A stretch of DNA of 64,000 nt, taken from assembly GCF_011762045.1 (NCBI RefSeq), contig NZ_JAASQS010000007.1, positions 124,001 to 188,000 on the forward strand. Reading direction: 5' to 3'. Each line of letters begins with the position of its first letter. Positions within the stretch are counted from its first letter, which is position 1. Positions 22,212-47,029 of this stretch are shown here, piece by piece. The notes under the pieces are model-generated. The model was not told the origin of the DNA. It worked only from the letters and a program-made list of their open reading frames with translations, and made no database searches. The stretch comes from Rhizomicrobium electricum. GTDB lineage: Bacteria > Pseudomonadota > Alphaproteobacteria > Micropepsales > Micropepsaceae. Position numbers and translations under genes: made by a program.

Positions 22212-24599
22212 TCAGCCGAGAACGACCTCCACTTTTGCGAGGCTTCCATCCGGCTGCGCGGGTACTTCGCGAACGGGTTCGCCGTTGAGCGCGATCGCCT
22301 TCACGCCCTTCGAGACGTGCGCAGGATTGCTGACGGTGATGTCATAGGTGGCGCCGCGCCATTTCCGTGTCACGGAGAATCCGTCCCACTCAGGCGGAAT
22401 GCAGGGATCGATGAGAAGGCTCGCGAACCCCGGCCGGATGCCGAGAATCCATTTGGTGACGGCAATGTAGTTCCATCCCGCGCTGCCGGTCAGCCAGGGA
22501 TGACGGGCGCGGCCATGACGGCGGTGTTCGGCGCCGTAGACGAACTGACAATAGGAATAAGGTTCGGCTTCGCGCGTCTCGACCTTGTCGTTCTGATTAT
22601 ATGGCAGCATCGAATCGTAGAACCGCATCGCGCGGGCGCCCTGTCCCAGTTTCGCGGCGGCAATCACCGCCCACGGATTGGGATGGGAGAAAATGGCGCC
22701 GTTCTCCTTGATGCCTTTGTAGACGCGGCCCATGAAGCCGATCTCGTCGTTGGGCTTGGAGAACGAAGGCTGCAACAGATGCAGCCCCCACGGCGTAAAC
22801 AGATGTTCGTCCATGGCGTCGAGGGCGCTTTCCGCGCGGTCGCGGCGTACGGCGCCTGAAATGACGGCCCAGGTGTTGCTTTCGAGAAAGATCTTTGCCT
22901 CTTCGCTGGCACGCGTGCCGATCTTGAGGCCCGAAGCCGTGGTGCCGCGGGCATACCACAGGCCGTCCCACAACTCGCGCTCGCAGGCGTCGCGCACGTC
23001 TTCGGCTAGTGCTGCGTAGCGGTCGGCATCCTTCTCGCGGCCAAGGAACCTGGCTGCCTCGACGAAATTCGTCAACGCCCAGAAATGCAGGAAGCTGACC
23101 ATGCCGCTCTCGCCGCCGCCAAGATTCAAGCAATCGTTCCAGTCGGCACGCAGGCCTTTGCAGATGCCGGAAAGGCCCACCTGCCGCGCCGAGAAGTCGA
23201 GCCCGGCTTTCATGTGCTGCCACACAGTGCCGATGCCTTCGTCGGCAAACGGCACCAGTTCGTCGAACAGCGCCGTCTCACCGGTCTCCTTCACATACTC
23301 GCAGATCGACGGGATCAGCCAGAGATGGTCGTCGGAGCAGGCGTGCTCGATGCCGTGAATATAGGACGATTTCGCCGGCGCGTGCGCAATGGTCGGGCTT
23401 TTGAATTCGAGCTTCTTCTGTGGCTTGAACCACGCCGGATCGAACAGGTGTAGCCCATATCCCTCCCGCACCTGGCCGTGCAGCAATTCCTCGATGCGCT
23501 GGCGCACTTTCTTCGGATTGGTATGCGGCACCGCCATGATGTCCTGGCTGGTATCGCGATAACCAAGACCGGTGCGCCCGCCAACCTCAATGAAACTGGC
23601 GAAGCGGCTCCAATGCACGCAGGTCTCCGCTTGGTACAGCGTCCAAATATTGGCCATAGTATCGAGACCTTCGTGCGGGGTCTTGGCCTCGAAGACGGCG
23701 CACTTCTCGTCCCAATAGCGCTTCAGATCGGCGAATGCGGCATCGACGGCGGCAAAGTTGCCGTACTTGGTTTTCTTTTCGACGCCGACGTTGCGGTTGC
23801 CGTAACCGGTTACGAACACCAGCCTCCGGGCCTCGCCCGGCTGAAGCGTGATCGTCTTTTGCAGGCTGGCGCAGTGATTGCCGGTGAGTTCCTGGCTGCC
23901 GCTGCACCGACCGCTTGCCACCGCCAACGGATCGCGCTCGCTGCGATAATCGCCGATGAAGGCCTCGCGCACGCTGTCGTATCCGTCGGGTTCGAAGGAG
24001 GCGGCATGATAGTGATAGGTCCAAGGCTCGTAATAGAAGTCGTACTCGATCACACCCTCCGCATAGCTCGAGCCGGAAGCGTAGAGCGACATCTGCAGGT
24101 TCTGGTTGTCGATCTCGATGTGATGGAAACTCCATTCGAGATAGCTGAACACCGCGATTTCGCGCGGAGTCGTGCCCGTATTGGTGATGCGAACGTCCCA
24201 GATCTCGACATCGTCTTCGCGGGTGATGAAAACGAGTTGTTCCGCGCGAATGCCTTTGTATTCGGAACTATAGCGTGAATAGCTAAGCCCGTGGCGGCAT
24301 TCGTACTCGGCTTGGTCCAGCGGCTTGCCGACCGGCTGCCACGACACGCTCCAGAAATCGCCGTCGGCCTGATCGCGCAGATAGATCCAATGCCCCGGCC
24401 AGTCCATCGGCACGCCGTTGGGGCGAAACTTGGTGATGCGGCCATGTTCGGCGTCGCGATAAAAGGAATAGCCGCCGGCATTGTGGCTGAGTACGGCACA
24501 CATGTCGTTGACGCCAATATAATTGGTCCACGACACCGGCACATCGACGCGGTCGATCACGTATTCGCGGTTTTGGTTGTCGAAATATCCGTAACGCAT
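22212..24599 (-). CDS. chbP: GH94 N,N'-diacetylchitobiose phosphorylase
   Basis: A 795-residue glycoside phosphorylase that splits (GlcNAc)2 with phosphate into GlcNAc-1-P and GlcNAc in the cytoplasm. The start MRYGYFDNQNREYVIDR, SHNAGGYSFYRD, DFWSVSWQPVGKPLD, QAETCVHWSRFASFIEVGG, GRTGLGYRDTSQD and ENGAIFSHPNPW closely follow the characterised Vibrio proteolyticus enzyme (801 residues). The catalytic acid is expected at Asp486 in GLRADWNDCLNLGGGE. ATG 24599 matches homologues; a GTG at 24611 overlapping the preceding stop (GTGA) is an alternative coupled start. It is last in the chitin operon, directly after the mutase fusion that would take its GlcNAc-1-P. Confidence 0.93.
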   Translation of the reverse strand: MRYGYFDNQNREYVIDRVDVPVSWTNYIGVNDMCAVLSHNAGGYSFYRDAEHGRITKFRPNGVPMDWPGHWIYLRDQADGDFWSVSWQPVGKPLDQAEYECRHGLSYSRYSSEYKGIRAEQLVFITREDDVEIWDVRITNTGTTPREIAVFSYLEWSFHHIEIDNQNLQMSLYASGSSYAEGVIEYDFYYEPWTYHYHAASFEPDGYDSVREAFIGDYRSERDPLAVASGRCSGSQELTGNHCASLQKTITLQPGEARRLVFVTGYGNRNVGVEKKTKYGNFAAVDAAFADLKRYWDEKCAVFEAKTPHEGLDTMANIWTLYQAETCVHWSRFASFIEVGGRTGLGYRDTSQDIMAVPHTNPKKVRQRIEELLHGQVREGYGLHLFDPAWFKPQKKLEFKSPTIAHAPAKSSYIHGIEHACSDDHLWLIPSICEYVKETGETALFDELVPFADEGIGTVWQHMKAGLDFSARQVGLSGICKGLRADWNDCLNLGGGESGMVSFLHFWALTNFVEAARFLGREKDADRYAALAEDVRDACERELWDGLWYARGTTASGLKIGTRASEEAKIFLESNTWAVISGAVRRDRAESALDAMDEHLFTPWGLHLLQPSFSKPNDEIGFMGRVYKGIKENGAIFSHPNPWAVIAAAKLGQGARAMRFYDSMLPYNQNDKVETREAEPYSYCQFVYGAEHRRHGRARHPWLTGSAGWNYIAVTKWILGIRPGFASLLIDPCIPPEWDGFSVTRKWRGATYDITVSNPAHVSKGVKAIALNGEPVREVPAQPDGSLAKVEVVLG

Positions 24600-24607
24600 G
24601 TCTTCAC

Positions 24608-26779
24608 TCACGCAGAAGCAAACTGTTTCAACCAGGCGATCAGTTCCGCCGCTTTTTCCGGGCTATCGGCTTCGGCCGCGAGCCGCAGTACGGGTTCGGT
24701 GCCGGAGAAGCGCAACTGGGCCCAGTTGTCGTTTTCGAGATAGAGTTTGGTGCCGTCGACGTGGCTGATGCGTTCGACGGCATATCCCGCCACGGTCGTG
24801 CACGGGTCCTTCTTGAGCCGTTGCGGGATTGCGATCTTCATTTCGGGCGTCGCCGGGAAGTTCTCTTCGGCGCTATAAAGCCGGCCGGTAATCGCCCAGA
24901 CTTTTTCCTGCAATTCGGAAATCTTCGCCTTCGTGCGCGCCACCATTTCGACCACGATGCCGGAGGCGAAGATGCCGTCCTTGCCCAAGATGTGACCGCG
25001 GATGGTCAGGCCGCCCGAGGATTCGCCGCCGAGAAGTGCGTTGTCCGCGACCATGCCGGCCGCGATGTGCTTGAAGCCGACCGGCGTCTCGGTGCACTTC
25101 TCGCCGAACGCCTTGGCAAGGCGCTCCAGCAGATGCGTAGTGGAGAGATTGCGCACCACACCGCCCGTCTGGCCGCGCACTTCGTGCAGATACCAGTAAA
25201 GCAGCACCAGTACGTCGTTGAACGAGATATAACGGCCGCGATCGTCCAGCAGTGCGATGCGGTCGGCATCGCCGTCCATGGCGAGACCCAGGTCGTAGTG
25301 ATCCTGCTGCATCATGTTGATGAGATCGCGCATGGCATCGGGATCGGGCGCCGGACTGCGGCCGCCGAACAGCGGGTTGTGGCGATTGTGGATGAAGTGA
25401 CAGCGGCAGCGCCCTTCGGTCAGTAGCGTCTCCAGCGTCAACTGCCCGACGCCGTACATCGGATCGATCGCCAGCCTGAGCCCCGCCTTGCGGATCGCGT
25501 CCATGTCGATCAGGGCTTCCACGGCGTCGATGTACTGGTTGGTGAAATCCTTCACCGCAACGATCCCGGCCTCAATGGCGAGGTCGAGCTCCAGTTTGAT
25601 GACATCCGCCGTGGTCAGCGCATTGGTCTCGGCCGCAATGACGCGGGTCTCGTCATCCAACAACAGCGAGCCATCACCATGGAAGACTTTCAGGCCGTTC
25701 CATTCCGGCGGGTTGTGGCTGGCGGTAAAGGCGAGGCCGAAGCCCGAGCCCAGCATCGCGGTGGCGTAGTTGATCAGTGGGGTTGGTGCGTCTTCGTTGC
25801 AGAGGATCGTGGGGATGTTGTTACCGGCAAACACCTCCGAGGCCGCCTCCGCGGCCTGGCGCGACAGGAAGCGCCGGTCATAGCCGACGATCACGCCCTT
25901 TTTCTCAAGACCCTTCCGGGTGATCTCGTTGGCAAGCGCTTGGGAAAGGCGGCGCACGTTGTGCATCGTAAAGCCTTCGCCGATGATGGCGCGCCAGCCG
26001 CCGGTGCCGAAGGCGACTTCGTTTTCTTCTTCCTGCCGATGCGGTCGGAACAGCCGCTTTTGCAGGATGAACGCGGCGGCTTCGAGATCGCCGGCGTCGT
26101 TGATGCCCCGCACTTCGTCGACATCGTAAAGCTGATAGCTGTCCACCTTGAGACCCGAGTGGAGGAGCTGCTTGACGCAGTCGGTCAGGCGGATTTCGCC
26201 GCCTTTGGCCGCAACACGTTTCAGAGCATCGAGAATGGTGGCGGCTTTCACGATATAAGCACCGACATTGAGTTCGCGGATGGCTTTGGTTTCGTCGTCG
26301 GCTTCGGTTTGCTCGACGATGTCGAGAATTTTTCCGTGCTCGTCGCGTCGCACCCGGCCATAGGGCAGGTCTTGCGGGACATTGGCGGTGAGCAGGGTCA
26401 GCGATACGCTCTTGAGCCGATGCCGGTTCAACAAGCCGCGCAAGGAGGCCGGGCGGAGCAACGGCGTGTCGCCGTAAAGAATGAGAAGGTCGCCGTCGAA
26501 TCCGGCCAGGGCATCGGCCGCCTGCAACACGGCATGGCCGGTACCGAGCGGCGTGTCCTGGATGACGAGCGCCGGCTCCCAGCCGACTTCCATTTGCACC
26601 GCCTTGAGGGTGCCCGGCGCGCTCACCACGATGACGTCGCGCGGCGCCACCAAGCCTTTCAGGTTGCGGATCACATGTCCGAGCACGGTGGTGTCGCCCA
26701 GCGGCTGGAGTTCGAGAGCGCCGGTTCCGCTCGAAAGCGGCTTCTGTCCGGCGGCGAGAATAAGGGCTTTCAGAGTCAT
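24608..26779 (-). CDS. Fusion of GlmU-like nucleotidyltransferase and alpha-D-phosphohexomutase
   Basis: A 723-residue two-domain protein. Residues about 1-243 align along their length with the GlmU uridylyltransferase domain: GTGHA (79-83), YGDTPL (Asp104), YGRV, VEQ (Glu156), ELNVG (Asn171), GEIRLTD and GIND (Asn227). However, the signature loop is rebuilt: LILAAGQKPLSSGTGALELQ lacks the usual GTRM and the Lys of PK. Residues about 255-723 form a phosphohexomutase: FGTGGWRAIIG, phosphoserine loop TASHNP (Ser354), metal loop DGDADR (502-507), sugar loop GGESSGG (584-590) and phosphate loop RFSGTEP (690-696), all intact. Between the permease and chitobiose phosphorylase genes it is expected to convert GlcNAc-1-P to GlcNAc-6-P. 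The nucleotidyltransferase activity is open. Confidence 0.88.
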   Translation of the reverse strand: MTLKALILAAGQKPLSSGTGALELQPLGDTTVLGHVIRNLKGLVAPRDVIVVSAPGTLKAVQMEVGWEPALVIQDTPLGTGHAVLQAADALAGFDGDLLILYGDTPLLRPASLRGLLNRHRLKSVSLTLLTANVPQDLPYGRVRRDEHGKILDIVEQTEADDETKAIRELNVGAYIVKAATILDALKRVAAKGGEIRLTDCVKQLLHSGLKVDSYQLYDVDEVRGINDAGDLEAAAFILQKRLFRPHRQEEENEVAFGTGGWRAIIGEGFTMHNVRRLSQALANEITRKGLEKKGVIVGYDRRFLSRQAAEAASEVFAGNNIPTILCNEDAPTPLINYATAMLGSGFGLAFTASHNPPEWNGLKVFHGDGSLLLDDETRVIAAETNALTTADVIKLELDLAIEAGIVAVKDFTNQYIDAVEALIDMDAIRKAGLRLAIDPMYGVGQLTLETLLTEGRCRCHFIHNRHNPLFGGRSPAPDPDAMRDLINMMQQDHYDLGLAMDGDADRIALLDDRGRYISFNDVLVLLYWYLHEVRGQTGGVVRNLSTTHLLERLAKAFGEKCTETPVGFKHIAAGMVADNALLGGESSGGLTIRGHILGKDGIFASGIVVEMVARTKAKISELQEKVWAITGRLYSAEENFPATPEMKIAIPQRLKKDPCTTVAGYAVERISHVDGTKLYLENDNWAQLRFSGTEPVLRLAAEADSPEKAAELIAWLKQFASA

Positions 26780-26780
26780 G

Positions 26781-28100
26781 TCAGTTTGCTCCGGATTGGC
26801 GGGGCTCGCCGTCCGTGTTGCGGAAGGGCACCAGCCAGGAAACGAGGAATGAGGGGATGGTGGCGATCATCACCCAGATAAAAAATTCACGATAACCGAG
26901 TTTGTCGCTCAGCATGCCTGAGACCGCCGAGGGGATCAGGAAGCCGAGATTCATCACGGAGGTCGCGAACGCGTAGTGTGCGGTGCGGTAAAGGCCGGGC
27001 GCGATCTGCTGCATCATGAAGAGTTGCAGGCCGATGAAGCCGAACCCGTAGCCCAGATATTCCAGGCTCACGAGGCTGGTGATCAGCGTCACGTCATGGG
27101 GCTGGGTAAGGGCTAGGACGAGATATACCGCGAACGGAATATTGAACCCGGCGCACAACACCAGAAGCGATCTTCTGAGACCCCGCCCGGCGGTGAAGTA
27201 GCCGGCGGCGAGCGAACCCAGAATGAAGGTGATCGGCGGAAACACGCCGTACATGACGCCGATGTCCTGGGTGGAAAGTCCGAGGCCGCCCGCGTCCCGC
27301 GTGGCCCGCATGAACAGCGGCACGATCTTGATCGCCTGACCTTCGGCGAAGCGGTACAGCACCAGGAACAGAATGCCCCAGAGGATGTATTTCTTTTCGA
27401 AGAAGGTGACGACCACATCGAGGACGGTGTGCCAGCCCTTCTTGTCGTCCGGAAGGCGGGCGCCCTGCGGCAGGAAGATCGCATGCCAACCGGCCACGGC
27501 GGCGAGCAGAAGGCCGAAACCGCCCATCGCCAGCGTCCACGCCGTCACCGGGCCGTAGTGTTTTTCCAGCCAGCCGGCGATCCAGACGAACCCGCCCTGG
27601 CTGAGGATCTTGCCCACATTGTAGAAGGCGCCTTGCCAGCCGACGTAGCGCGCCTGGTCTGTGGCCGACAGCGTGGTGACGTAAACGCCGTCGGCCGCGG
27701 TGTCGTGTACCGCCGAATTGATCGCAATCAGCCCGAAGAAGATCAGCGTCCAGGTGAAGAGATCGGGCAGGTGCAGGCTCAGTGCCAGAAGACCGAAGCA
27801 AAGGCCGCCGCCTATTTCGGTCGCCAGCACGAAGGCCTTCTTGGTACGGAACATTTCCACCAGCGGCCCCCACAGCGGCTTGATCGCCCAGGGGATGGCG
27901 ACGAGGCTGGTGAAGAACGCGATCTCGGCATCCTTGAAACCCAGGCTCTTGTACATGAGCACAGCCACGACGTTCACCATCACGTAAGGCAAGCCTTCCG
28001 CGGTGTAGAGCGTGGGGACCCAAAGGGCCGGATGTGAAATGCGTGTACTGGTCTTCGACTTGTCCGCTGGCGCTGGCGCCGCGGCGTCGTCAGTGGTCAT
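26781..28100 (-). CDS. MFS transporter (AmpG-like), probable chitobiose/GlcNAc-oligosaccharide permease
   Basis: A 439-residue inner-membrane carrier with twelve predicted helices. The first part (YTAEGLPYVMVNVVAVLMY, LVAIPWAIKPLWGPLVE) resembles the AmpG/acetyl-CoA transporter branch, which carries GlcNAc-containing muropeptides, rather than the NagP branch. Its position between a chitinase gene and the GlcNAc-1-P mutase/chitobiose phosphorylase genes makes intact (GlcNAc)2 the best candidate substrate; this is inference. ATG 28100 has GAGGA upstream and lies 11 bp inside the chitinase 3' end; the downstream gene begins one base after its stop. Confidence 0.85.
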   Translation of the reverse strand: MTTDDAAAPAPADKSKTSTRISHPALWVPTLYTAEGLPYVMVNVVAVLMYKSLGFKDAEIAFFTSLVAIPWAIKPLWGPLVEMFRTKKAFVLATEIGGGLCFGLLALSLHLPDLFTWTLIFFGLIAINSAVHDTAADGVYVTTLSATDQARYVGWQGAFYNVGKILSQGGFVWIAGWLEKHYGPVTAWTLAMGGFGLLLAAVAGWHAIFLPQGARLPDDKKGWHTVLDVVVTFFEKKYILWGILFLVLYRFAEGQAIKIVPLFMRATRDAGGLGLSTQDIGVMYGVFPPITFILGSLAAGYFTAGRGLRRSLLVLCAGFNIPFAVYLVLALTQPHDVTLITSLVSLEYLGYGFGFIGLQLFMMQQIAPGLYRTAHYAFATSVMNLGFLIPSAVSGMLSDKLGYREFFIWVMIATIPSFLVSWLVPFRNTDGEPRQSGAN

Positions 28101-29208
28101 CGGTATCCTCGGAAAAGGCGGGACTGGCACTGCGCTGCCGGTCGAGCAGGACGCGTGCTGTCAGTTCCAATTCCCGGGGTGAGACGACGACGGGGTGGCC
28201 GCAACGGGGCAGTTTCTGGTCTTTCAGAATGTGCCAGAGCATCGCTCCGTCCTGCGGATTGGCGGCGTTCGAAAGCGGCCCGTCTTTAAGGGCGCGTTCG
28301 ACCGAATAGGGTTTGTTCACCGGATTGCCGAATTGGTCGGCCTTGATCCGCGCGCCGGGGCACACCGCTTTATCGTCGGTGGCCACCAGACGCGCGGGCC
28401 CCCAACCTTCGGGAGCAGTTTCGAATCCGATGTTGAGGGTAATGGTCGATGGAACCAGGGCGCGGTAGAGCGACCACGCCTTGACCGGGTCGAATTCGTC
28501 GACGCCGGCGTCGTAGCTCATCACATTGATCATCGAGAGCCTGGCGAACAGGCTGTTGTCGGCAAAGACGAGGCGCTCGCGCCCAGTGCGGCCGTCCCAG
28601 ACGCCGCTCTTGCCGCCGCACGGTGCGGTGCCGGTCGCTTTGGTGCAATCGGCGCCGGTCGACCACGCCGCCAGCGACAGCATTTTTCCTCTCGCGGCAT
28701 TCGATAGTGCCCGGATGGCGCCGCGATATTCGGCAATCTGCTTGAGGCCGGTGCCGTCGGTTTCGTAATCGACGTCGATACCATCGAGACCCATATCGCT
28801 GACGAATCGTGCCAGCGCCGCGGTATTCTTGCCCGGTTTGTCGGCTTCGGCGGCGAGCGGCGCCCAGTTGAGATAAGTTGCTCCGCCGACTGCCAGAACG
28901 ACCTTGGTACCGCGCGCTTGCAGAGCCGCGATTTGTTTTTTGAGTGCGTCGGGACTGCTGGCGAATTGCAGGCCCGTCCCTGACCAAGTCTTGCCGTTCC
29001 AGGCAAAGTCGGGTTTCGCGAAGGCCAGGATCACATGAGTGTAGCCCGTCGGTGTCGCCGAAAGCTTGGCAGCAGTCGCTTCGAACCAGCTCGGATAATA
29101 GCCGACCAGAGCGCGGCTATCGCCGGCGTGGGCCGCAACCGCGGTCGACAACAGCAGAGCGGCGAGGCTTGCCTGCAACACGCAGCGATGTAGGCCCCGC
29201 GTTTTCAT
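28090..29208 (-). CDS. Secreted GH18 chitinase
   Basis: A 372-residue single-domain chitinase. A signal peptide ends near residue 28 (AVAAHA). The barrel begins ALVGYYPSW, has the VVLAVGGATYLNW strand and the catalytic motif DGIDVDYE at residues 142-149, with Glu149 as acid. MINVMSYD supplies the later conserved Tyr-Asp. No chitin-binding domain is seen, so it probably trims soluble oligomers in the periplasm or outside. The gene overlaps nagA by 4 bp (ATGA) and the permease gene by 11 bp, showing it belongs to the operon. Confidence 0.92.
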   Translation of the reverse strand: MKTRGLHRCVLQASLAALLLSTAVAAHAGDSRALVGYYPSWFEATAAKLSATPTGYTHVILAFAKPDFAWNGKTWSGTGLQFASSPDALKKQIAALQARGTKVVLAVGGATYLNWAPLAAEADKPGKNTAALARFVSDMGLDGIDVDYETDGTGLKQIAEYRGAIRALSNAARGKMLSLAAWSTGADCTKATGTAPCGGKSGVWDGRTGRERLVFADNSLFARLSMINVMSYDAGVDEFDPVKAWSLYRALVPSTITLNIGFETAPEGWGPARLVATDDKAVCPGARIKADQFGNPVNKPYSVERALKDGPLSNAANPQDGAMLWHILKDQKLPRCGHPVVVSPRELELTARVLLDRQRSASPAFSEDTDDH

Positions 29209-30338
29209 GGCACCCGACCGCCAATGAAGGTTTTCACGACCTCGAAAGCGTCGTTCATCAGCACCAGATCGGCACGGGCGCCGGGCGCGATCACGCCTCT
29301 TTCGTTCTCGAGTCCGAGAAATTCCGCCGCGTTGGTGCTGGCAAGGCGCGAGATCGTGGGAAGATCGACACCGAGATACCCGACCGTCTTCCTGACGATC
29401 GCGGCCATGTCGGTGGCACTGCCGGCGAGGGTGCCGTCCGGTCCATAACAACAGCCATCTCTGGTGGTGATGGTGCGCCCTTGCAGCACAAATGTCGGAT
29501 CGCCGCCGACCGGCGGCATGGCGTCGGTCACCAGCATCAGCCTGCGCGACCCGCGGACGGTATAGGCGATCCGCAGCGCTGCGGGATGGACATGATGACC
29601 ATCGCCGATGATGCCGCACCAACTTTCGCGATCGTCGAGTGCGGCGCCGACCACGCCGGGGGCGCGGTGATTGAACGGCGACATCGCATTATAGAGATGG
29701 GTGAAACCGCGCGCCCCGGCCTTTAATGCGGCGTTGGCTTCATCATAGCTGGCGTCGGAATGGCCGATGCAGACGATCACGCCCGCTTGCGACAGCGCCT
29801 TGACGTCGGCCGGTGTCGTCACGTCGGGCGCCATCGTCACCATCGTCTTGCCGTGCTTCAGCGACGAGAGAATGGCGATGGCGTCGGCATCGAGCTTGGG
29901 AAATTCCTTCGGGTTGTGGATGCCGCGGCGCTTGGGGCTGAGATACGGCCCTTCGATATGGATGCCGATGATGCCCGGTACGCCGGCTGCCACGGCGGCG
30001 TCTACCGCCGCAATGCATTTGGCGATGCCGTCGAGACCGGTCGAGATCACGGTCGGCATCAATGCCGTAGTGCCGAAGCGGGCATGCGCCTTGGCGATGG
30101 CAGCGAGCCCTTCGACGGTGGGCGTGTCGTTGAAGAGGACGCCGCCGCCGCCGTTGACCTGCACATCGATGAAACCGGGAATCAGTGTGCTGCCCTCGAG
30201 ATCGACGGTTTCGGCCCCCTGGGGTACTGCCTTTTCGGGGACGATCGCGATGATGCGTCCGTTGTCGCACAACAGCGCTTTGTCCGAATGAATTCCTTCG
30301 GGCGTCAGGATGCGGCCATGGACGAATGCGATAGTCAT
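29205..30338 (-). CDS. nagA: N-acetylglucosamine-6-phosphate deacetylase
   Basis: A 377-residue cytosolic amidohydrolase producing glucosamine-6-P and acetate from GlcNAc-6-P. It has PGFIDVQVNGGGG, the metal Glu in GIHIEGPYLS, His in IGHSDASYDE, the THLYNAMSPFNHR segment, GDGHHVHP and the catalytic Asp in LVTDAMPPVGGD. The start at 30338 shares one base with the preceding stop (TGATG). The position between the deaminase and chitinase genes fits the convergence point of the PTS and phosphorolysis routes. Confidence 0.95.
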   Translation of the reverse strand: MTIAFVHGRILTPEGIHSDKALLCDNGRIIAIVPEKAVPQGAETVDLEGSTLIPGFIDVQVNGGGGVLFNDTPTVEGLAAIAKAHARFGTTALMPTVISTGLDGIAKCIAAVDAAVAAGVPGIIGIHIEGPYLSPKRRGIHNPKEFPKLDADAIAILSSLKHGKTMVTMAPDVTTPADVKALSQAGVIVCIGHSDASYDEANAALKAGARGFTHLYNAMSPFNHRAPGVVGAALDDRESWCGIIGDGHHVHPAALRIAYTVRGSRRLMLVTDAMPPVGGDPTFVLQGRTITTRDGCCYGPDGTLAGSATDMAAIVRKTVGYLGVDLPTISRLASTNAAEFLGLENERGVIAPGARADLVLMNDAFEVVKTFIGGRVP

Positions 30339-31366
30339 CAAAGGGTCTCGGTCACTTTGTTGAGCAGCGGTGGATTGTCGGGATTCATGCCGCGGGCGCG
30401 CGAAAGCTGCTCGGCCATGCGGTAGAAGCTTTGCAGCATCAGGATCGGCTGCAACGCCGGATGGGCATCGACGGTCGGCAGAACCAACGCCCGCGGATCG
30501 TCGAAGCCGGCCAGAAGAATGTCGGCGCCGCTTTGTGCCAGCGCTGCAATCAGGTCCTCCACGCCGGCACGGGTTTCGTCGTCCTGACTGAGGATGAAGG
30601 CGGGAAAGCCGTCCTTGGCCAGCGCCATCGGGCCGTGGCGTACTTCGGCTGCGCTGAAGGCTTCGGCATGAAGACCGCAGGTTTCCTTGAATTTGAGGGC
30701 TGCTTCCTGTGCCGCGCCGAAGCCGACGCCGCGCCCGATCACATACAGGTCCCGCGCGCCCGCCAGATTTTCCGCTGCCTTGGACCAATCGAGATCCCAG
30801 GCCTGGACCATTCTCGCCGGCAGCTCGTTCAGGGCGTTGGTGAGCGAAGAGTCGCCGGCCCATGCTGCCACGAGGTGGGCGATTCCTGCGACTGTGGCGA
30901 GGTAGGATTTGGTCGCTGCCACGCTCTTTTCCGGCCCGGCATGCAGCGGAATGGCGACATCGGCTTCGGTCGCAAGCGGCGAATCGATGACATTGACGAA
31001 CGCGACGGTGAAGGCGCCCGCCTGTTTGGCCGCCTGAAGAGCCGTGACGATGTCGGGACTTTTGCCGCTCTGCGAGGTTCCGATCAGCACCGTGCCTTTG
31101 AGATTGGCCTTGGCGCTATAGACCGAGCTGACCGAGGGCGCCGCCGACGAGGTCAGGATGCCGAGCCGCGTTTCGATCAGGTATTTGGCGTAGGTGGCCG
31201 CGTTATCGGAGCTGCCGCGCGCCAGCGTCACCACCGCATGCGGTGCCAGTGTCTTCAATCGCGCAGCCGTTGCGGCGATCAGGGCGGCATTGACGGCGCT
31301 CTGGCGTGCAATCACGTCAGGGGCTTCCGCCGCTTCACGAAACATCAGGGTCTGAACGTCAAGCAC
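30338..31366 (-). CDS. SIS-domain glucosamine-6-phosphate deaminase (NagB-II/AgaS-like)
   Basis: A 342-residue protein with two SIS sugar-isomerase domains: VVTLARGSSDNAATYAKYL and LIGTSQSGKSPDIVTAL in the first, YVIGRGVGFGAAQEAALKFK and AAEVRHGPMAL in the second. It lacks the glutaminase domain of GlmS. In nag operons of proteobacteria this type (NagB-II) replaces classical NagB, converting glucosamine-6-P to fructose-6-P and ammonia. It lies three bases after the GntR gene and overlaps nagA. Confidence 0.9.
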   Translation of the reverse strand: MLDVQTLMFREAAEAPDVIARQSAVNAALIAATAARLKTLAPHAVVTLARGSSDNAATYAKYLIETRLGILTSSAAPSVSSVYSAKANLKGTVLIGTSQSGKSPDIVTALQAAKQAGAFTVAFVNVIDSPLATEADVAIPLHAGPEKSVAATKSYLATVAGIAHLVAAWAGDSSLTNALNELPARMVQAWDLDWSKAAENLAGARDLYVIGRGVGFGAAQEAALKFKETCGLHAEAFSAAEVRHGPMALAKDGFPAFILSQDDETRAGVEDLIAALAQSGADILLAGFDDPRALVLPTVDAHPALQPILMLQSFYRMAEQLSRARGMNPDNPPLLNKVTETL

Positions 31367-31369
31367 GCG

Positions 31370-32113
31370 TTACTCCGAAGCGTTGAGTTCGGCGACGAAG
31401 TCGTAGGTGTCGCCGCAATAGTAGGATTGCGAAAATTCGACGATGCGACCGTCGCCGAGAAAGCCGCGGCGCTCGACCAAAAGACCGGCGTCTCCTTCCT
31501 TGCCGTGCAACAATTCCGTCTGCTGTGCCGTTAAAAGCACAGCGCGCAAGCGCTGCAGCGCCCGTTGCGGCCGGTAACCTGCCTTATCCAAGGCGTCGTA
31601 CAACGAGGCCTGCACGGCATCGATCGACGGCAGCACGAAGGTCGGAAGAGTGCAGAATTCCAACGACATCGGGGTGTCGTCGGCATAGCGCAAGCGGTTG
31701 AAGTGGTAGACCGGCGTGCCCGGCGCGAAGCCCGTTGCCATCGCCTCCTCGGGCGATACGACGCCCTGGCTCTTCTTCAGCCAGACCGAATGCGGACTTT
31801 TCCCGCGGCTGGTCATGTCCTCGGTGAAGCTCGACAGCTTGGAAAAGCTCTTCTCGACGCGCGTCGCGACGAAGGTGCCGGAGCCTTGGCGGCGGGTCAG
31901 AAGTCCTTCCGAAACAAGCCCATCCAGCGCTTTGCGGACCGTGATGCGGGAGACTGCAAACTCCTCGGCCAGGTCGCGTTCCGGCGGCAGCGCGTCTTCC
32001 GGGGCCAGGAGCTTCATCTCGATGGCGCGCCGAAGCCCCCGCTGGAGCTGTTGGTAAAGCGGCAGGCTGTGGTCCTCGTCGAGGTTGCCGATCAAGGCCG
32101 AAAGGGAAGTCAC
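31370..32113 (-). CDS. GntR/HutC-family regulator of the chitin operon (NagR/NagQ-like)
   Basis: A 247-residue repressor: an N-terminal winged helix (PLYQQLQRGLRRAIEMKLLA, VSRITVRKALDGLVSEGLL, RRQGSGTFV) and a C-terminal UTRA ligand-binding domain (SSFTEDMTSRGKSP, YHFNRLRYADDTPMSLE, LLVERRGFL). GTG 32113 is preferred because GGAG lies 6-9 bases upstream; a TTG at 32173 would put the operator motif inside the gene. It is first in the nag operon; related regulators respond to GlcNAc-6-P or glucosamine-6-P. The paired motifs upstream are its likely binding sites. Confidence 0.9.
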   Translation of the reverse strand: MTSLSALIGNLDEDHSLPLYQQLQRGLRRAIEMKLLAPEDALPPERDLAEEFAVSRITVRKALDGLVSEGLLTRRQGSGTFVATRVEKSFSKLSSFTEDMTSRGKSPHSVWLKKSQGVVSPEEAMATGFAPGTPVYHFNRLRYADDTPMSLEFCTLPTFVLPSIDAVQASLYDALDKAGYRPQRALQRLRAVLLTAQQTELLHGKEGDAGLLVERRGFLGDGRIVEFSQSYYCGDTYDFVAELNASE

Positions 32114-32166
32114 CGGTGTCTCCGTAAATGGTCTCAAGAGGGCCGGAATTTGTGGGACCCGACCTA

Positions 32167-32183
32167 ATACCAATGCAATACCA
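32167..32183. promoter_or_regulatory. GntR operator candidate, copy 1 (nag operon side)
   Basis: ATACCAATGCAATACCA; its reverse complement shares the 14-mer TGGTATTGCATTGG with copy 2 at 32290-32307. It sits about 55 bp upstream of the GntR start codon, where it can control the minus-strand nag operon. The sequence is itself partly symmetric. Confidence 0.6.
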
Positions 32184-36844: not shown

Positions 36845-39055
36845 ATGCTTTTTCGCTTGCGATTGACGGCAGTCGTTCTTGCCGTGCTGCCGTTCGTAGG
36901 TGCCCCGGCTGCCGATTTGAGCTTGATCCCCTGGCCGCGCGCGCTGACGCGGGAGCCGGGCACGTTCCGTCTTGCGGCGGCGACGCCGATCGTCTGTACC
37001 GGGACGAATGATGCAGGTTGTGCTGCCGCTGCCGACAGGCTGCGGGCTTGGATCGCCAAGAGCCGCGGCTTGACGCTATCGCAAGCTGCCTCCGGTCCTG
37101 CCATCGTGTTTCGGCGTACCGTGGCGCCGGCGGGCGAGGGTTATCGCCTCACCGTCACGCCCTCGAATATCACCATCGAAGCGGCGAGAGATGCCGGATT
37201 TCTCTACGGCGCGGCGACGCTATTCCAACTGGCGACGCAGCAGGCGGGCGCCACAGGCGAGATCGATATTCCCGCCGTGACCATCGACGACGCCCCGCGC
37301 TTTGCTTGGCGCGGACTGATGCTCGATTCCGTCCGTCACTTTCAGCCGCCCGCCGCCGTCAAGACGCTCCTCGACGCGATGGCGTGGCATAAACTGAATG
37401 TGCTGCATTGGCATCTGGCCGACGATCAGGGTTGGCGGATCGAGATCAAGAGGTATCCTCGCCTGACCCAGGTCGGCGCATACCGGTTCAACAGCCGTGA
37501 AGGCCGTTATGGCGGCTATTATACGCAAGCCGAAATCCGTGACATCGTGGCCTATGCGAAAGCGCGCAACATCACCGTCGTGCCGGAAATCGAGATGCCC
37601 GGCCATGCGCTGGCAGCGATCGCTGCCTATCCGCGGCTCGGGTCGGTCAAGCGCGTCTCCAAAGGTCCCTCGGGCGATTGGGGCGTCTTTCCCTATCTCT
37701 ACAACGTGAACGACACGACCTTCGCGTTTCTCGAGAATGTTCTTTCCGAAGTGATGGCGCTGTTCCCGTCGCCTTACATTCACATCGGCGGCGACGAAGC
37801 TCCCAAGGATCAATGGGACGCTTCACCGGAAGTACAGAAGCGGATGCGGGCGCTCGGCATATCGGACACCAAGGCCTTGCAAGGCTATTTCACCGACCGC
37901 ATCGGCAAATTCCTGCTGGCCCATGGCCGACGTCCGATCGGCTGGGACGAGATTATCGAAGGCCACCCGTCGCCCGACGCGGCCGTGATGAGCTGGCGCA
38001 CGGTCGAAAGCGCCAGCGAGGCGGCCAACCTCGGCCATGACGTCGTGCTGTCGCCGGCACCGACCTACTATCTCGATTATTGTCAGGCGCAGCGCCTGGG
38101 CGAACCGACCTGCCGTGGCCCGGAAATTCCGCTGCGTGAGGTTTACGCCTTCGATCCTGCGCCGAAGGGGGCGCTGGAGAAGCATCTCATCGGCGTGCAG
38201 GCGAACGCCTGGACCGAACACATGCCGACGCCGCAGGCGATGTTCCGGGCTGTGTTCCCGCGCGCCGCCGCCCTCGCCGAAACCGGCTGGTCGACGGAGC
38301 ACGACTGGAACAGATTTGTTGGAGCACTGCCGGCTCAGTTTGACCGCTACGCCGCGTTCGATTTGCCGTATGCGCCGGTCGTGTTTGCGGTCGATGTCGG
38401 GGCGGAGCCGTCGCCGGCCGGCGCCCGCATAACGCTCACCAATCAGGCCAAGTTCGGGGCACTTCGCTACACGCTGGACGGCTCCGAGCCGGGACCGAAT
38501 TCGCCTCTCTACACGGCGCCGTTCGAAACCGCGATGCCGGTAACGCTGGAGGCGGCCACCTTTTCCGATGGACAGCGAATCGGTCCGGTCACGTCGAAAC
38601 GCCTCGATGCGTCGTCGATTTTGCGCCGTAGTTCGTGGACAATGAATCAGTGCACCAATGACCTGCCGCTGGCCCAGAGAAGCCGCGACGGCAAGGTGTC
38701 CATGGTCAATGTGATGCATCCGTGCTGGATCTACCGGCACGCCGATCTTGGCGCTCTCAAGGGGCTCGATGTCTCTGTGGCGCCGCTTCCGTTCAATTTC
38801 CAGCTGATGCACGACATCACCAAAATCCCGCTCGATCCGAAGGCGGCGCGCAGCGGCCAACTCGAAATCCGGCGTGACGATTGCGCGGGCCCGGTACTGG
38901 CGATCGTGAAACTGCCGAAGACGCGCGGCTATCGGACGATCCGCACGACGTGGGCGTCGCAGGCCGGTGTCCACGACATCTGCCTCAATTTTGCACGCCG
39001 CAAGGTCGATCCGGTCTGGGCGATCGATTGGGTTCAGCCCTTGCGCAAGGAGTAA
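36845..39055 (+). CDS. Periplasmic GH20 beta-N-acetylhexosaminidase
   Basis: A 736-residue hydrolase with a signal peptide (LTAVVLAVLPFVGAPA). It has a GH20b-like N-terminal domain (to about residue 145), then the catalytic barrel from FAWRGLMLDSVRHFQP, WHKLNVLHWHLADDQGWRIE, VVPEIEMPGHALAAIAAYP and the active-site pair Asp317-Glu318 in IHIGGDEAPKDQW. Trp motifs (GWDEIIEG, VMSWRT, QANAWTE) line the pocket. The C-terminal 200 residues include a chitobiase C-terminal-like domain (LRYTLDGSEPG) and a second beta domain. It releases GlcNAc from chitooligomers for the PTS encoded directly downstream (2-bp gap). Confidence 0.93.
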   Translation: MLFRLRLTAVVLAVLPFVGAPAADLSLIPWPRALTREPGTFRLAAATPIVCTGTNDAGCAAAADRLRAWIAKSRGLTLSQAASGPAIVFRRTVAPAGEGYRLTVTPSNITIEAARDAGFLYGAATLFQLATQQAGATGEIDIPAVTIDDAPRFAWRGLMLDSVRHFQPPAAVKTLLDAMAWHKLNVLHWHLADDQGWRIEIKRYPRLTQVGAYRFNSREGRYGGYYTQAEIRDIVAYAKARNITVVPEIEMPGHALAAIAAYPRLGSVKRVSKGPSGDWGVFPYLYNVNDTTFAFLENVLSEVMALFPSPYIHIGGDEAPKDQWDASPEVQKRMRALGISDTKALQGYFTDRIGKFLLAHGRRPIGWDEIIEGHPSPDAAVMSWRTVESASEAANLGHDVVLSPAPTYYLDYCQAQRLGEPTCRGPEIPLREVYAFDPAPKGALEKHLIGVQANAWTEHMPTPQAMFRAVFPRAAALAETGWSTEHDWNRFVGALPAQFDRYAAFDLPYAPVVFAVDVGAEPSPAGARITLTNQAKFGALRYTLDGSEPGPNSPLYTAPFETAMPVTLEAATFSDGQRIGPVTSKRLDASSILRRSSWTMNQCTNDLPLAQRSRDGKVSMVNVMHPCWIYRHADLGALKGLDVSVAPLPFNFQLMHDITKIPLDPKAARSGQLEIRRDDCAGPVLAIVKLPKTRGYRTIRTTWASQAGVHDICLNFARRKVDPVWAIDWVQPLRKE

Positions 39056-39057
39056 TC

Positions 39058-41502
39058 ATGGTCACGGTGCTGGCGCCGATGACCGGATGGGTGGCCCCGC
39101 TGGGCGAGGTGCCCGATCCGGTATTTGCCGACAAGATTATGGGCGACGGCGTCGCTATCGACCCTACCGATGGACGGATCGTGGCGCCGTGCAATGGCGT
39201 GATCGCGACGCTTGCCGCACACGCTTTCACCATTCGTGCTGCCAGTGGTATCGAGATTCTCACCCATGTCGGTCTCGATACCGTTGCGCTCAAAGGCGAG
39301 GGCTTCAAGGCCTTGGCGCGTGAAGGTCAGGTGGTCAAGGCGGGCGATCCGGTCTTGATGGCCGATCTCGATTTCCTTGCCCGCAACGCCAAAAGCCTGA
39401 TCTCGCCCGTGATCGTCGTTGGCGGCGAAGGCCTGCGCATCCTTCGCCGGGCGGAGAATTGTGAAGTCGTAGCTGGTGCATTTCTGCTGGAAATCGCCGC
39501 GCTCGGCACTGCGCCCGAGGCCGCCAGCGGTACCGCGACCGTGACAGCCAAGGCGGTCGTCGCCAGCGAACATGGTCTGCATGCCCGTCCGTCGGCGTTG
39601 ATCGCCACTACGGCCAAACGCTTTGCCGGCGAGATAACGCTTACCTGTCGCGGCCGCAGTGCCAACGCCAAGAGCGCGACCGCCATCATGAGCCTTGGCG
39701 TGCACCAGGGCGACGAAGTCGCGATTAGCGCTCCCTCGCGCGCCGCCACCGATGCCATCGTCGCGGTCGTGGCCGCCGTGGGCGAGCGGGAGCATCGTGT
39801 GCTGGCGCCGGCCCTTGCTCCGCGTGCGCTGCCGTCCAACACAGCAACACGGATTCACGGCATTGCTGCCGCGCCCGGCCGGGCTGTCGGCGTTGCCGTG
39901 CAGATGAGCGGGCGCGAGATCGCGGTGGTGGAAGCGGGGCGCGGCATCGCCGCCGAAACCAAGGCGTTGCGGGAAGCTATTGCCCAATTGCGCGCGCGTT
40001 TGGAGCGGACGGCGACTTCGGGGGATCGCGTCCGTCGCGAAATCCTGTCGGCGCATGTGGCGCTTCTTGATGATCCCGATCTTGTTGCGGCGGCCGAAAA
40101 GAAGATCGGCGAGGGCAAGAGTGCGGCGTTCGCCTTCCGCAGCACGGTTCGCGTTTCCGCGGAGCGCTTGCGGACGATGGACGACATGCGGATGCGCGAG
40201 CGGGCCGGCGATCTCGTCGATCTCGAGCGTCAGGTGCTGGCGCTTCTCACGGGGGCGACGGCCGCGCCAGAACGCGCTTTGCCGCCGGGCGCCATCCTGA
40301 TCGCCGAAGAAATCCTTCCCTCCGATCTGAAGTCCGGCATTGCAGGTTTTGTTTCGTCCGGCGGCGGACCGACCTCTCATGCTGCGATACTTGCTGCGGG
40401 CATGAACATCCCCGCTCTGGTCGGCGCCGGGCCGCAGGTGCTGGCGATCCGGGAGGGTGGCGAACTTCTTCTCAATGCGGATGATGGTTTCGTCGATCTA
40501 GCGCCTGATGCGGCCGCGGTCGCCGACACCAGACAGCGCGTCGCGGCGGCAGCGGCTCGCCGCCAGCGGGAACAGTCCGAAGCGGTGTCCGATTGCGTCA
40601 CGGCCGACGGCGTGCGGGTGGAAGTCTTCGCCAATCTCGGCAAGGGCGCCGCCGAAGCGGCGGAAGCGGTGGGGCTCGGCGCCGAAGGCTGCGGCGTGCT
40701 CAGGACCGAGTTTCTGTTCATGGATCGCGAGACCCCGCCGAGCGAAGACGAGCAGTTTGCCGCCTATCAAGGCATCGCCGACGCGCTCGCCGGCCGTCCT
40801 TTCATCATCCGCACCTTCGATATCGGTGCCGACAAGCCGGTGCCGTATTTGCACTTCCCGCCGGAAGACAATCCGCAACTCGGTCTTCGTGGCGTACGCA
40901 CGGCGAGCGTCTGGCCTGAACTTCTGACGACCCAGCTCAAGGCGGCCGCGCGCGTCAAAGGGCAGGTGAGGATCATGCTGCCGATGATCACCGCGCCGCA
41001 CGAAATCCGTGCAATCCGCACTGTGCTCGCCGGGATGGGCGCGTCGCTGCCGCTCGGTGCGATGGTGGAGACGCCGTCCGCCGGTCTGCTGGCTGACCAG
41101 TTGGTGGCGGACGCCGACTTTCTTTCCATCGGCACCAACGACCTCACGCAATACGTATTGGCCATCGATCGCGGGCATCGCGCCTTGTCGGGGCAGCTCG
41201 ATGCGCTGCATCCGGCCGTGCTGCGCCTGATCGCCCGTGCGTCCGACGCGGCCAATGCCGTGCACAAGTCCGCTGCGGTGTGTGGCGGCCTCGCTGCCGA
41301 CCTGGTGGCCGCGCCGATCCTGATCGGACTCGGCATTTCCGAACTGTCGGTGCCGCCGCCGGTGGTCCCGAGGCTGAAAGCGGCCATCCGCCGATTGAAT
41401 AGCGACGCCTGCCGCACCGCCGCGCGCGCCGCACTGGAGCTCGAAACGCCCGAGGCTGTGCGCGCCCTGGTCAAAGCCAACTTCGTCGAGGAGGACCGCT
41501 GA
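39058..41502 (+). CDS. PTS fusion protein EIIA(Glc-type)-HPr-Enzyme I
   Basis: An 814-residue phosphocarrier. EIIA (1 to about 150) has LAPMTGWVAPLGEVPDPVFA, a first His55 and phospho-His70 in ILTHVGLDTVALKGEGF. HPr (about 160-245) has ASEHGLHARPSALI with His175. Enzyme I (about 265-814) has the phospho-His441 in GGGPTSHAAIL, GVLRTEFLFMDR, SIGTNDLTQYVLAIDR and the PEP-domain Cys742 in AAVCGGLAAD. One polypeptide can therefore carry phosphate from PEP to the EIIB of the adjacent permease. This A-H-I order is known from GlcNAc PTS systems (NagF-like) of Xanthomonas, Caulobacter and relatives. It overlaps the permease gene by one base. Confidence 0.94.
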   Translation: MVTVLAPMTGWVAPLGEVPDPVFADKIMGDGVAIDPTDGRIVAPCNGVIATLAAHAFTIRAASGIEILTHVGLDTVALKGEGFKALAREGQVVKAGDPVLMADLDFLARNAKSLISPVIVVGGEGLRILRRAENCEVVAGAFLLEIAALGTAPEAASGTATVTAKAVVASEHGLHARPSALIATTAKRFAGEITLTCRGRSANAKSATAIMSLGVHQGDEVAISAPSRAATDAIVAVVAAVGEREHRVLAPALAPRALPSNTATRIHGIAAAPGRAVGVAVQMSGREIAVVEAGRGIAAETKALREAIAQLRARLERTATSGDRVRREILSAHVALLDDPDLVAAAEKKIGEGKSAAFAFRSTVRVSAERLRTMDDMRMRERAGDLVDLERQVLALLTGATAAPERALPPGAILIAEEILPSDLKSGIAGFVSSGGGPTSHAAILAAGMNIPALVGAGPQVLAIREGGELLLNADDGFVDLAPDAAAVADTRQRVAAAAARRQREQSEAVSDCVTADGVRVEVFANLGKGAAEAAEAVGLGAEGCGVLRTEFLFMDRETPPSEDEQFAAYQGIADALAGRPFIIRTFDIGADKPVPYLHFPPEDNPQLGLRGVRTASVWPELLTTQLKAAARVKGQVRIMLPMITAPHEIRAIRTVLAGMGASLPLGAMVETPSAGLLADQLVADADFLSIGTNDLTQYVLAIDRGHRALSGQLDALHPAVLRLIARASDAANAVHKSAAVCGGLAADLVAAPILIGLGISELSVPPPVVPRLKAAIRRLNSDACRTAARAALELETPEAVRALVKANFVEEDR

Positions 41503-43244
41503 TGAAATCCGTCTTCGAGGTCCTGCAGCCTCTGGGCCGCGCCTTGATGCTGCCGATCGCCGTCCTGCCGGCGGCGGGCATTCTGTTGCGCATCGGTCAA
41601 CCGGATCTGCTCAACGTCGCCTTCATCACCGAGGCAGGCAACGCGATTTTCGCCAATCTCGGTCTTTTGTTCGCGGCCGGTGTCGCGGTGGGTCTGGCCA
41701 AGGAAAACCACGGCGCGGCCGCCATCGCCGGCGTGGTGTGTTACGTGGTGGCGACCTACGCCGCCAAGGCCTTGATGGTTGTCCCACCGTCGGAACTTTC
41801 CAGCTACAGCGGCAAGGCGGCGGAGTGGGCTGCCTCCGCGTTCAAGGATCAAACCATCAAGCATCTCAGCGTGCCGACCGGCATCGTGTCCGGCCTTGTC
41901 GCGGGCTGGCTCTATAATCGCTATCACGCCATCAAACTGCCGGAGTATCTCGCCTTCTTCGGCGGCCGCCGCTTCGTGCCGATTGCGGCGGGGTTCTCGG
42001 CGTTGCTGCTCGCGTTCGTCATCGGCACGTCCGGATTCGCCATCGAGCATGCGATGGACGTGTTCAGTCATGGCGTCGTCCAGCTCGGCGCGTTGGGATT
42101 GTTCATCTACGGCGCGCTCAACCGGCTTTTGATCGTCACCGGACTGCACCACATCCTGAACTCGCTGGTGTGGTTCAACCTCGGCAGCTTTCACGGCGTG
42201 ACCGGCGATTTGAATCGCTTCGCTGCGGGCGACCCCAGTGCCGGTGCCTTCATGTCGGGATTTTTCCCGGTAATGATGTTCGGCCTGCCGGCGGCGTGTC
42301 TGGCGATGTATCACACCGCCCGCCCCGACCGGAAAAAGGAGGTCGGCGGCATGCTGGCCTCGATGGCGCTCACGGCTTTTCTCACCGGCGTCACCGAGCC
42401 GATCGAATTCTCTTTCATGTTCCTGGCCCCGCCGCTTTACGCCCTTCATGCCGTCCTCACCGGCTTTTCGATGGTGGTGATGAGCCTCCTGAATGTGCAT
42501 TTGGGTTTTGGCTTCTCGGCCGGATTTTTCGATTACGTGATCAACTTCAACAAGGCGCAGCATCCCTGGCTGCTGGTCCCGGTCGGGATGGCCTATTTTG
42601 CGATCTATTACGGTCTGTTCCGTCTGGCGATCCGCGTGTTCAATCTCAAGACGCTGGGTCGCGAAGAGCCGAGCGCGGCCACCGCTCCGGCCAAGGTCGT
42701 CGATGCCGCCGGGCGGGGGCAGGCTTATCTTGCTGCTCTCGGCGGCACCGAGAATATCGCCAGTGTCGATGCCTGCACCACACGGCTGCGGCTGATCGTG
42801 AATTCGAATGCCGCGGTCGACGAACCCAAGCTGAAGGCTCTCGGCGCCAAAGGATTTGTGCGGCCATCGGCCAATGCCTTGCAGGTGGTGGTAGGACCGG
42901 TCGCCGATCAGGTGGCGAGTGAAATCCGCGCGGCGATGAATAGGCCGCTTGCTGCGGCGCCGTCTGCGCGCCCTGTGGAAACAGCGAAAGCAAAGCCGAT
43001 CCCGCTCGGAGCGGCAGCCGCCTACCTGAAGGCCTTGGGCGGTATCGTCAATATCGGGCGGGTATCGCGTTGCGCCAGCCGGCTGGTCGTCGATCTCAAG
43101 GACCCGAATGCCGCCGATGAGGCCGCTCTGCGGGGTGCCGGTGTCCGGAGCCTCGTGCGTTTTGGCGGCAGCGTGCATTTGATCCTTGGGCCCGACGCCG
43201 ACAAGGTCGAAGCCGGATTGGTCGCCGCCTTGGGAACGCGGTAG
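41502..43244 (+). CDS. nagE: N-acetylglucosamine PTS permease EIIC-EIIB-EIIB
   Basis: A 580-residue permease. The EIIC part (1 to about 385) has ten helices with QPLGRALMLPIAVLPAAGIL, LHHILNSLVWF, GDLNRFAAGDPSAGAFMSGF and the substrate-site stretch GVTEPIEFSFMFLAP. Two EIIB domains follow: the first with phospho-Cys425 (DACTTRLRL), the second with Cys524 (VSRCASRLVVDL), joined by an Ala/Pro linker. It imports periplasmic GlcNAc as GlcNAc-6-P. Ordinary NagE carries one EIIB, and here EIIA is on the partner protein. The stop abuts the convergent dehydrogenase stop. Confidence 0.93.
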   Translation: MKSVFEVLQPLGRALMLPIAVLPAAGILLRIGQPDLLNVAFITEAGNAIFANLGLLFAAGVAVGLAKENHGAAAIAGVVCYVVATYAAKALMVVPPSELSSYSGKAAEWAASAFKDQTIKHLSVPTGIVSGLVAGWLYNRYHAIKLPEYLAFFGGRRFVPIAAGFSALLLAFVIGTSGFAIEHAMDVFSHGVVQLGALGLFIYGALNRLLIVTGLHHILNSLVWFNLGSFHGVTGDLNRFAAGDPSAGAFMSGFFPVMMFGLPAACLAMYHTARPDRKKEVGGMLASMALTAFLTGVTEPIEFSFMFLAPPLYALHAVLTGFSMVVMSLLNVHLGFGFSAGFFDYVINFNKAQHPWLLVPVGMAYFAIYYGLFRLAIRVFNLKTLGREEPSAATAPAKVVDAAGRGQAYLAALGGTENIASVDACTTRLRLIVNSNAAVDEPKLKALGAKGFVRPSANALQVVVGPVADQVASEIRAAMNRPLAAAPSARPVETAKAKPIPLGAAAAYLKALGGIVNIGRVSRCASRLVVDLKDPNAADEAALRGAGVRSLVRFGGSVHLILGPDADKVEAGLVAALGTR

Positions 43245-45766: not shown

Positions 45767-47029
45767 ATGACAAGCGCAGTCGCAGCGGCACCCGCCAAAG
45801 GGGTCGCGCGGTCGCCTCGGGATTGGTCGTCGCGGGTTCGCGCCGAACTGGTGGGCAATATCCTGCCGTTCTGGCCGCGCCATGCCATCGATCGTGCCGG
45901 TGGCGGCTTTTTCGGTGAGATCGCCGACGATTTGACGGTCCGCCCCCACGCCGTGCGCGCGTCCGTCGTGAATACCCGCATCTTATGGACGTTCGCCACG
46001 GCGGCGCGCGTCATCGGACCGGAATGGCGCGAAACCGCCGATTGGGCGTTCGAGACCGTGACCGGCCGCTTCTGGGACATCCAGTCGGGCGGGCTGTTCT
46101 GGTGGCTGGATTGGCAAAGCAAGCCGCTCGCATTGCGCAAGCAGACCTACGCGCAGGCGTTCGGGATTTATGCCCTCAGTGAGTATTATCGGCTGACCGG
46201 CAACGCCACGGCCTTGGACCTCGCCAAGCGGCTATATCAGCTGGTCGAGCAGCACTGTTTCGATCCTCGCCGCGGCGGTTATATCGAGGCGCTCGACCGC
46301 GATTGGAAAGCGCTGGCAGACATGCGGCTGTCCGACAAGGACCTCAACAGTCCCAAGTCGATGAACACGCACCTGCACGTCCTGGAAGGCTACACCAATC
46401 TCTTGCGGGTCTGGCCCGACGAAGGATTGCGGCAACGCCAGAAGGCGCTGATCGAAATCATGCTCAATCGCATCGTCGATCCGGTAACCGGTCACTTCAG
46501 GCTTTTCTTCGACGAGGACTGGACTTCGCTGATCGATAACGTGTCCTTCGGTCATGACATTGAAGGAAGCTGGCTGTTTGTCGAAGCCGCCGAGGTTGTC
46601 GGCGACGCGGCCTTGATCGCCCGCACGCGGGCGGTTGCGCTTCGGATGGCCGGTGCCTGTCTGGCTCAAGGTCTCGATGTCGACGGCTCCATGTTCTTCG
46701 AGGCTGACGGGCAGGGGAACATCCGCGATGCCGACAAGCACTGGTGGGTCCAGGCCGAAGCGGTGGTCGGATTCTACAATGCCTATCAGTTATCGGGCGA
46801 CGCACGGTTCCGCGATGCGGCGCGGTGCGTCTGGGACTACATCGAAAACCATGTCGTCGACCGTGAACACGGCGAATGGCACGCCAAGCTGACACGCGAC
46901 GGCACACCGGTGCGCGGCTTCGAAGATGCGGATGCCGTGCTGGTCGGTCCCTGGAAGTGTCCTTACCACAACGCCCGAGTTTGTTTCGAAATGCTGAACC
47001 GCTTGGGGAATGAGAAAGAAACGCCATGA
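45767..47029 (+). CDS. AGE-superfamily epimerase, probable cellobiose 2-epimerase
   Basis: A 420-residue (alpha/alpha)6-barrel enzyme. The landmarks are RAELVGNILPFWPRHAID, GGGFFGEI, NTRILWTFATAAR, KSMNTHLHVLEGYTNL, VSFGHDIEGSWLF, KHWWVQAEAVVGF and WKCPYHNARVCFEM. The three His in these motifs are the general acid/base residues of cellobiose 2-epimerases and GlcNAc 2-epimerases. The 4-bp overlap (ATGA) with a cellobiose phosphorylase gene favours cellobiose as substrate, giving 4-O-beta-glucosyl-mannose. N-acylglucosamine 2-epimerase is the alternative but is less likely here. Confidence 0.82.
   Translation: MTSAVAAAPAKGVARSPRDWSSRVRAELVGNILPFWPRHAIDRAGGGFFGEIADDLTVRPHAVRASVVNTRILWTFATAARVIGPEWRETADWAFETVTGRFWDIQSGGLFWWLDWQSKPLALRKQTYAQAFGIYALSEYYRLTGNATALDLAKRLYQLVEQHCFDPRRGGYIEALDRDWKALADMRLSDKDLNSPKSMNTHLHVLEGYTNLLRVWPDEGLRQRQKALIEIMLNRIVDPVTGHFRLFFDEDWTSLIDNVSFGHDIEGSWLFVEAAEVVGDAALIARTRAVALRMAGACLAQGLDVDGSMFFEADGQGNIRDADKHWWVQAEAVVGFYNAYQLSGDARFRDAARCVWDYIENHVVDREHGEWHAKLTRDGTPVRGFEDADAVLVGPWKCPYHNARVCFEMLNRLGNEKETP

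Follow-up and report, generated by a model that had tools for sequence, protein, structure and literature searches.

The GlcNAc-1-P made by chitobiose phosphorylase (ChBP) is a direct substrate for GlmU too, so chitin degraders have to divide it between use as fuel and use in the cell wall. Proteins that, like the one described here, carry a nucleotidyltransferase fused to a phosphohexomutase are known in the GDP-mannose type, but these two-domain proteins keep the signature loop and are biosynthetic. In the phylum sample, only one genus other than that of the window has a ChBP of this type, and the four ChBP operons that we read for comparison come from it; we take this genus to be Vibrio, given the 1V7V type of its ChBP, 1V7V being a Vibrio enzyme, and the gene order described in the initial annotation. 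In each of them, a stand-alone 470-aa mutase lies directly downstream, in agreement with the separate Vibrio mutase that the initial annotation had mentioned. Finally, in the account given in PMC11228364, GMPPA is a non-catalytic paralogue of GMPPB that binds nucleotide sugar and regulates its partner.

The window analyzed here, 64,000 nucleotides from Rhizomicrobium electricum, includes a chitin operon on the minus strand, whose features are given in the order of transcription.

31370..32173, minus strand, GntR/UTRA regulator (profile matches)
30338..31366, minus strand, SIS protein, NagB-II-type glucosamine-6-P deaminase (NF046059, 345 bits, under the cut-off of 430)
29205..30340, minus strand, NagA, GlcNAc-6-P deacetylase (TIGR00221, 306 bits, above the cut-off of 225.65; start approximate, mechanical ORF to 30863)
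28090..29205, minus strand, GH18 chitinase-like gene (start approximate, mechanical ORF to 29622)
26781..28130, minus strand, AmpG-like MFS transporter, ending 1 base ahead of the fusion start
24608..26779, minus strand, fusion gene, 723 aa: putative pseudo-GlmU nucleotidyltransferase domain and phosphohexomutase
26045..26779, minus strand, N-terminal GlmU-like domain of the fusion, aa 1-245 (AlphaFold pLDDT about 90 across most of the domain)
26702..26746, minus strand, eroded signature loop, aa 12-26 (R18/K25 equivalents L15/L22; low model confidence)
24608..26014, minus strand, phosphohexomutase part of the fusion, aa 256-723 (the four catalytic loops all present)
22212..24611, minus strand, GH94 ChBP, with a 4-base overlap with the 3' end of the fusion

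The coordinates and the length of 723 residues first reported for the fusion are correct, and the strand, left unstated at that time, is minus. The GH94 protein downstream of the fusion scores 1162 bits against 1V7V, a chitobiose phosphorylase, compared to at most 505 bits against other GH94 structures. The AmpG-like transporter might import chitobiose instead of muropeptides. A similar gene also lies directly upstream of the fusion in three Acidobacteriota (L009, L010, and L016). An ordinary GlmU and an ordinary GlmM are encoded elsewhere in the genome. The window includes a second GH94 gene (47026-49467), with a gene of the GlcNAc 2-epimerase family ahead of it, and its product is a cellobiose phosphorylase (1125 bits against 3QDE versus 487 against 1V7V); no fusion adjoins it, and we reject a tie between the fusion and cellobiose phosphorylase. 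The stretch 38881-43241 encodes an EIIA-HPr-EI fusion and, after it, a PTS EIICB protein; this may be a PTS for GlcNAc.

In the 723-aa protein, Pfam recognizes a nucleotidyltransferase domain together with the complete set of four phosphohexomutase domains, PF02878, PF02879, PF02880, and PF00408 each scoring above the cut-off. The left-handed beta-helix acetyltransferase domain of GlmU is absent, and the mutase comes straight after the N domain. Residues 5-243 align with residues 5-243 of S. pneumoniae GlmU (PDB 1G95) without any shift, and residues 256-714 align with phosphohexomutases. The nearest NCBIfam models are GlmU for the front domain (156 bits, cut-off 450) and archaeal GlmM for the rear part (TIGR03990, 288.8, cut-off 439), and the GlmM model TIGR01455 gives 143.7, below its cut-off of 447.55. 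Since both halves score below the cut-offs, the names GlmU and GlmM do not apply to the fusion. No NCBIfam model is dedicated to this family and our literature search found no description of the fusion; the family appears to be undescribed so far. AlphaFold models the full-length protein with a pLDDT of 84.5 and a pTM of 0.84, both domains being confident and the signature loop poor, and the isolated N domain, without a supplied alignment, with a pLDDT of 45, a model that we set aside. A fold search returned only mutases among the matches listed.

A scan for close relatives, with one genome per species, recovered the fusion at 16 loci, spread over Alphaproteobacteria, Acidobacteriota, Chloroflexota, and Actinomycetota. 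A homologue search for the fusion, as proposed in the initial annotation, gave 37 loci besides the window after duplicate removal, in the same four groups, which rules out a sequencing artefact or a one-off fusion. The fusion is sporadic but recurrent: in samples that each include the genome on which the search was centred, 6 of the 96 genomes from the window's own family have it, as do 18 of the 297 from the order that includes Actinotalea, 4 of the 251 from Chloroflexota, and 1 of the 250 from the class of the Solibacteraceae genome with L009, this last being the search-centring genome itself. Within a sample of the window's own class (289 genomes), the sole whole-protein match, among the matches listed, is the window's genome. 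One divergent Chloroflexota fusion (L115, genome G983, about 55% identity) stands among non-chitin genes with no GH94 nearby.

The link to chitobiose phosphorylase that had been drawn from the window extends to most of these loci. In 28 of the 37 other loci, the gene that directly follows the fusion on its strand, after a gap of 0-495 bases, encodes ChBP, and three of these adjacent GH94 proteins, when tested, matched 1V7V roughly twice as strongly as they did cellobiose phosphorylases. Together with the window, these loci show the genetic coupling to ChBP expected of a mutase of the chitobiose pathway. The downstream side of L097 is interrupted by a contig end, and the sequence downstream of L088 differs from that of its near-twin L087. 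No ChBP stands beside the fusion at seven of the 37 loci (L005, L006, L007, L008, L011, L015, and L101); L005 adjoins a GH20 gene, and the genomes of L006, L007, and L008 gave zero GH94 matches genome-wide. At L014 (9001-13744), in a complete genome, the fusion and the GH94 gene are both frameshifted, by error or decay.

The mutase half was initially described as intact, and indeed the window protein has all four loops: TASHNPP at 352, DGDADR at 502, GGESSGG at 584, and RFSGTEP at 690. These Ser, metal, sugar, and phosphate loops, in four domains, place it in the alpha-D-phosphohexomutase superfamily. Ser 354 is invariant in the alignment of the fusions, and dN/dS of the mutase part is 0.01-0.13 in 14 pairs of fusions. 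The Vibrio mutase is its top-scoring stand-alone relative among those compared, with 43% identity versus at most 38% for the others, and in the mutase tree the fusions are scattered over several groups at an unresolved fork. Given this intact mutase and the coupling of its gene to that of a GlcNAc-1-P-making enzyme, the C-terminal domain is likely the mutase that acts on GlcNAc-1-P in the ChBP pathway.

The N-terminal domain differs from GlmU first in its signature loop, which reads QKPLSSGTGALELQ in the window. As stated in the initial annotation, the GTRM/PK signature is lost: in the alignment to GlmU, L15 and L22 occupy the places of E. coli R18 and K25. The GxGTxR...PK loop of GlmU is missing from all 37 distinct fusions compared (36 loci and the window, L014 being omitted for its frameshifts), whereas ordinary GlmU retains it, including the GlmU of the window's own genome. 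Between LAAG and LGD, the fusions have 7-15 residues, none of them common to all 37. This variable length and the lack of any common residue show an eroded loop rather than the "rebuilt" one initially proposed, and rule out a novel conserved catalytic motif. Among the 31 fusions of alignment A1, none has Arg at the R18 position, 30 have Leu, Ile, or Met at the K25 position and one has Arg, so that R18 and K25 equivalents never occur together as Arg and Lys; the column entropy of the loop is 2.16 bits, versus 1.37 for the remaining N domain. The N domain is thus very probably dead as a uridylyltransferase. It seems very improbable to us that the domain is still active as a nucleotidyltransferase, with a changed use of nucleotides, and converts GlcNAc-1-P into a nucleotide sugar: the metal ligands D104 and N227 and the sugar site remain, and 18 of the 31 fusions have an Arg seven residues ahead of L27 that might replace R18, but the window's own clade lacks this Arg, a hydrophobic residue takes the place of K25 in 30 of the 31, the unconserved loop is up to eight residues shorter in some fusions, and the genome already has an ordinary GlmU. 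The same features argue against the earlier suggestion of an enzyme diverting GlcNAc-1-P to UDP-GlcNAc.

The pocket of the domain shows the opposite pattern. GTGHA (79-83), D104, E156, N171, and N227 are all retained in the window protein, as initially noted, and equivalents of E. coli Q76, G81, D105, G140, E154, N169, and N227 are all present and invariant in the 31 fusions. We tested the 11 positions that correspond to contacts with uracil, sugar, and metal in E. coli GlmU; all are invariant in these 31 main-group fusions, compared to 32 of 245 invariant positions domain-wide (hypergeometric P 3e-11, a statistic that ignores the relatedness of the sequences). Some of these residues may be conserved for the fold alone. 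Outside the loop, dN/dS of the N domain is 0.02-0.21 in the 14 pairs, indicating purifying selection at the sequence level and ruling out pseudogene-like decay for the main group. With homologues in four phyla, an invariant pocket, and dN/dS well below 1, the fusion is far beyond chance. The invariant sugar- and metal-site equivalents and the coupled genes would also suit a domain that captures GlcNAc-1-P from ChBP and channels it to the mutase. We regard this as improbable, given that uracil-side Q74, G79, and T80, unneeded for capturing a sugar phosphate alone, are just as invariant, and that this is not an established role of such domains.

The pocket is not kept everywhere. In an actinomycete subclade (L092-L097), GTGHA is replaced by GPADA or GPAAA, the strand of E156 (the YGR-E156 stretch) is deleted, and N171 is replaced by Asp, while D104, N227, the fusion, and the ChBP neighbour remain (except for the neighbour in L097, at the contig end). 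Ligand binding is therefore not required of every member. Because this subclade keeps the domain without the pocket, a dead GlmU domain that oligomerises or stabilises the mutase, or docks ChBP, with no ligand sensing, stays a live alternative. ChBP is adjacent at most loci, and R109, G115, and R119, invariant across the fusions and different in S. pneumoniae GlmU, could form an interface, possibly a contact with the mutase. Nevertheless, such a scaffold has no need for 11 of 11 invariant ligand-pocket positions over four phyla, and we consider it rather unlikely.

The explanation that we slightly favour is a ChBP-coupled GlcNAc-1-P mutase with a pseudo-GlmU domain, probably a sensor of UDP-GlcNAc or GlcNAc-1-P. 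ChBP would liberate GlcNAc-1-P from chitobiose by the phosphorolytic route, the C-terminal domain of the fusion would convert it into GlcNAc-6-P, and NagA and NagB-II would complete the route. Devoid of the phosphate-binding loop, the N domain would have no transferase turnover while retaining the uracil, sugar, and metal pocket; it would bind UDP-GlcNAc (or GlcNAc-1-P) and tune the mutase, thereby balancing catabolic flux against the supply of cell-wall precursors. A pocket kept while the phosphate loop is lost suggests binding without turnover, for which sensing of UDP-GlcNAc or GlcNAc-1-P is the simplest form, and of the two roles initially suggested, sensor or altered enzyme, the former fits the data best, since the catalytic loop is gone and the 31 main fusions nonetheless share an invariant pocket. 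From the sequences, which give the domain make-up, the loop loss, the invariant pocket, the purifying selection, and the ChBP operon, we infer the substrate of the mutase, the lack of transferase activity, ligand binding, and regulation with its sign. A dead domain on a ChBP-linked mutase is highly probable on these grounds, and the sensor role of the N domain has about an even chance: the pocketless L092-L097, the seven loci without ChBP, and the Vibrio mutase without an N domain all speak against it. More tentatively, a GlmU domain converted into a built-in UDP-GlcNAc sensor might allow one protein to decide how much chitin-derived GlcNAc-1-P goes to cell-wall synthesis and how much to energy metabolism.

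Control at the GlcNAc-1-P branch point, between fuel and the cell wall, now has a candidate that can be tested, a pseudo-GlmU domain on a mutase, present in four phyla. It is also a likely annotation trap, as the N domain resembles a nucleotidyltransferase and should not carry that name. Compared to GlmU, the fusion shares the uridylyltransferase domain and the pocket residues, whereas its signature loop is eroded, the beta-helix acetyltransferase domain is absent, and a mutase is attached. The Vibrio stand-alone mutase has the same operon position with ChBP and all four mutase domains, but it is only 470 aa long, with no GlmU-like domain. GMPPA, in the account cited above (PMC11228364), resembles the N domain as proposed here: it is related to nucleotidyltransferases but lacks catalysis, binds a sugar nucleotide, and regulates a partner. 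Unlike the fusion, it is eukaryotic, belongs to GDP-mannose metabolism, acts in trans on another nucleotidyltransferase, and has no mutase attached. If the sensor reading is true, the fusion would bring to bacteria, and within a single protein, the kind of sensing that GMPPA and other inactive nucleotidyltransferases perform.
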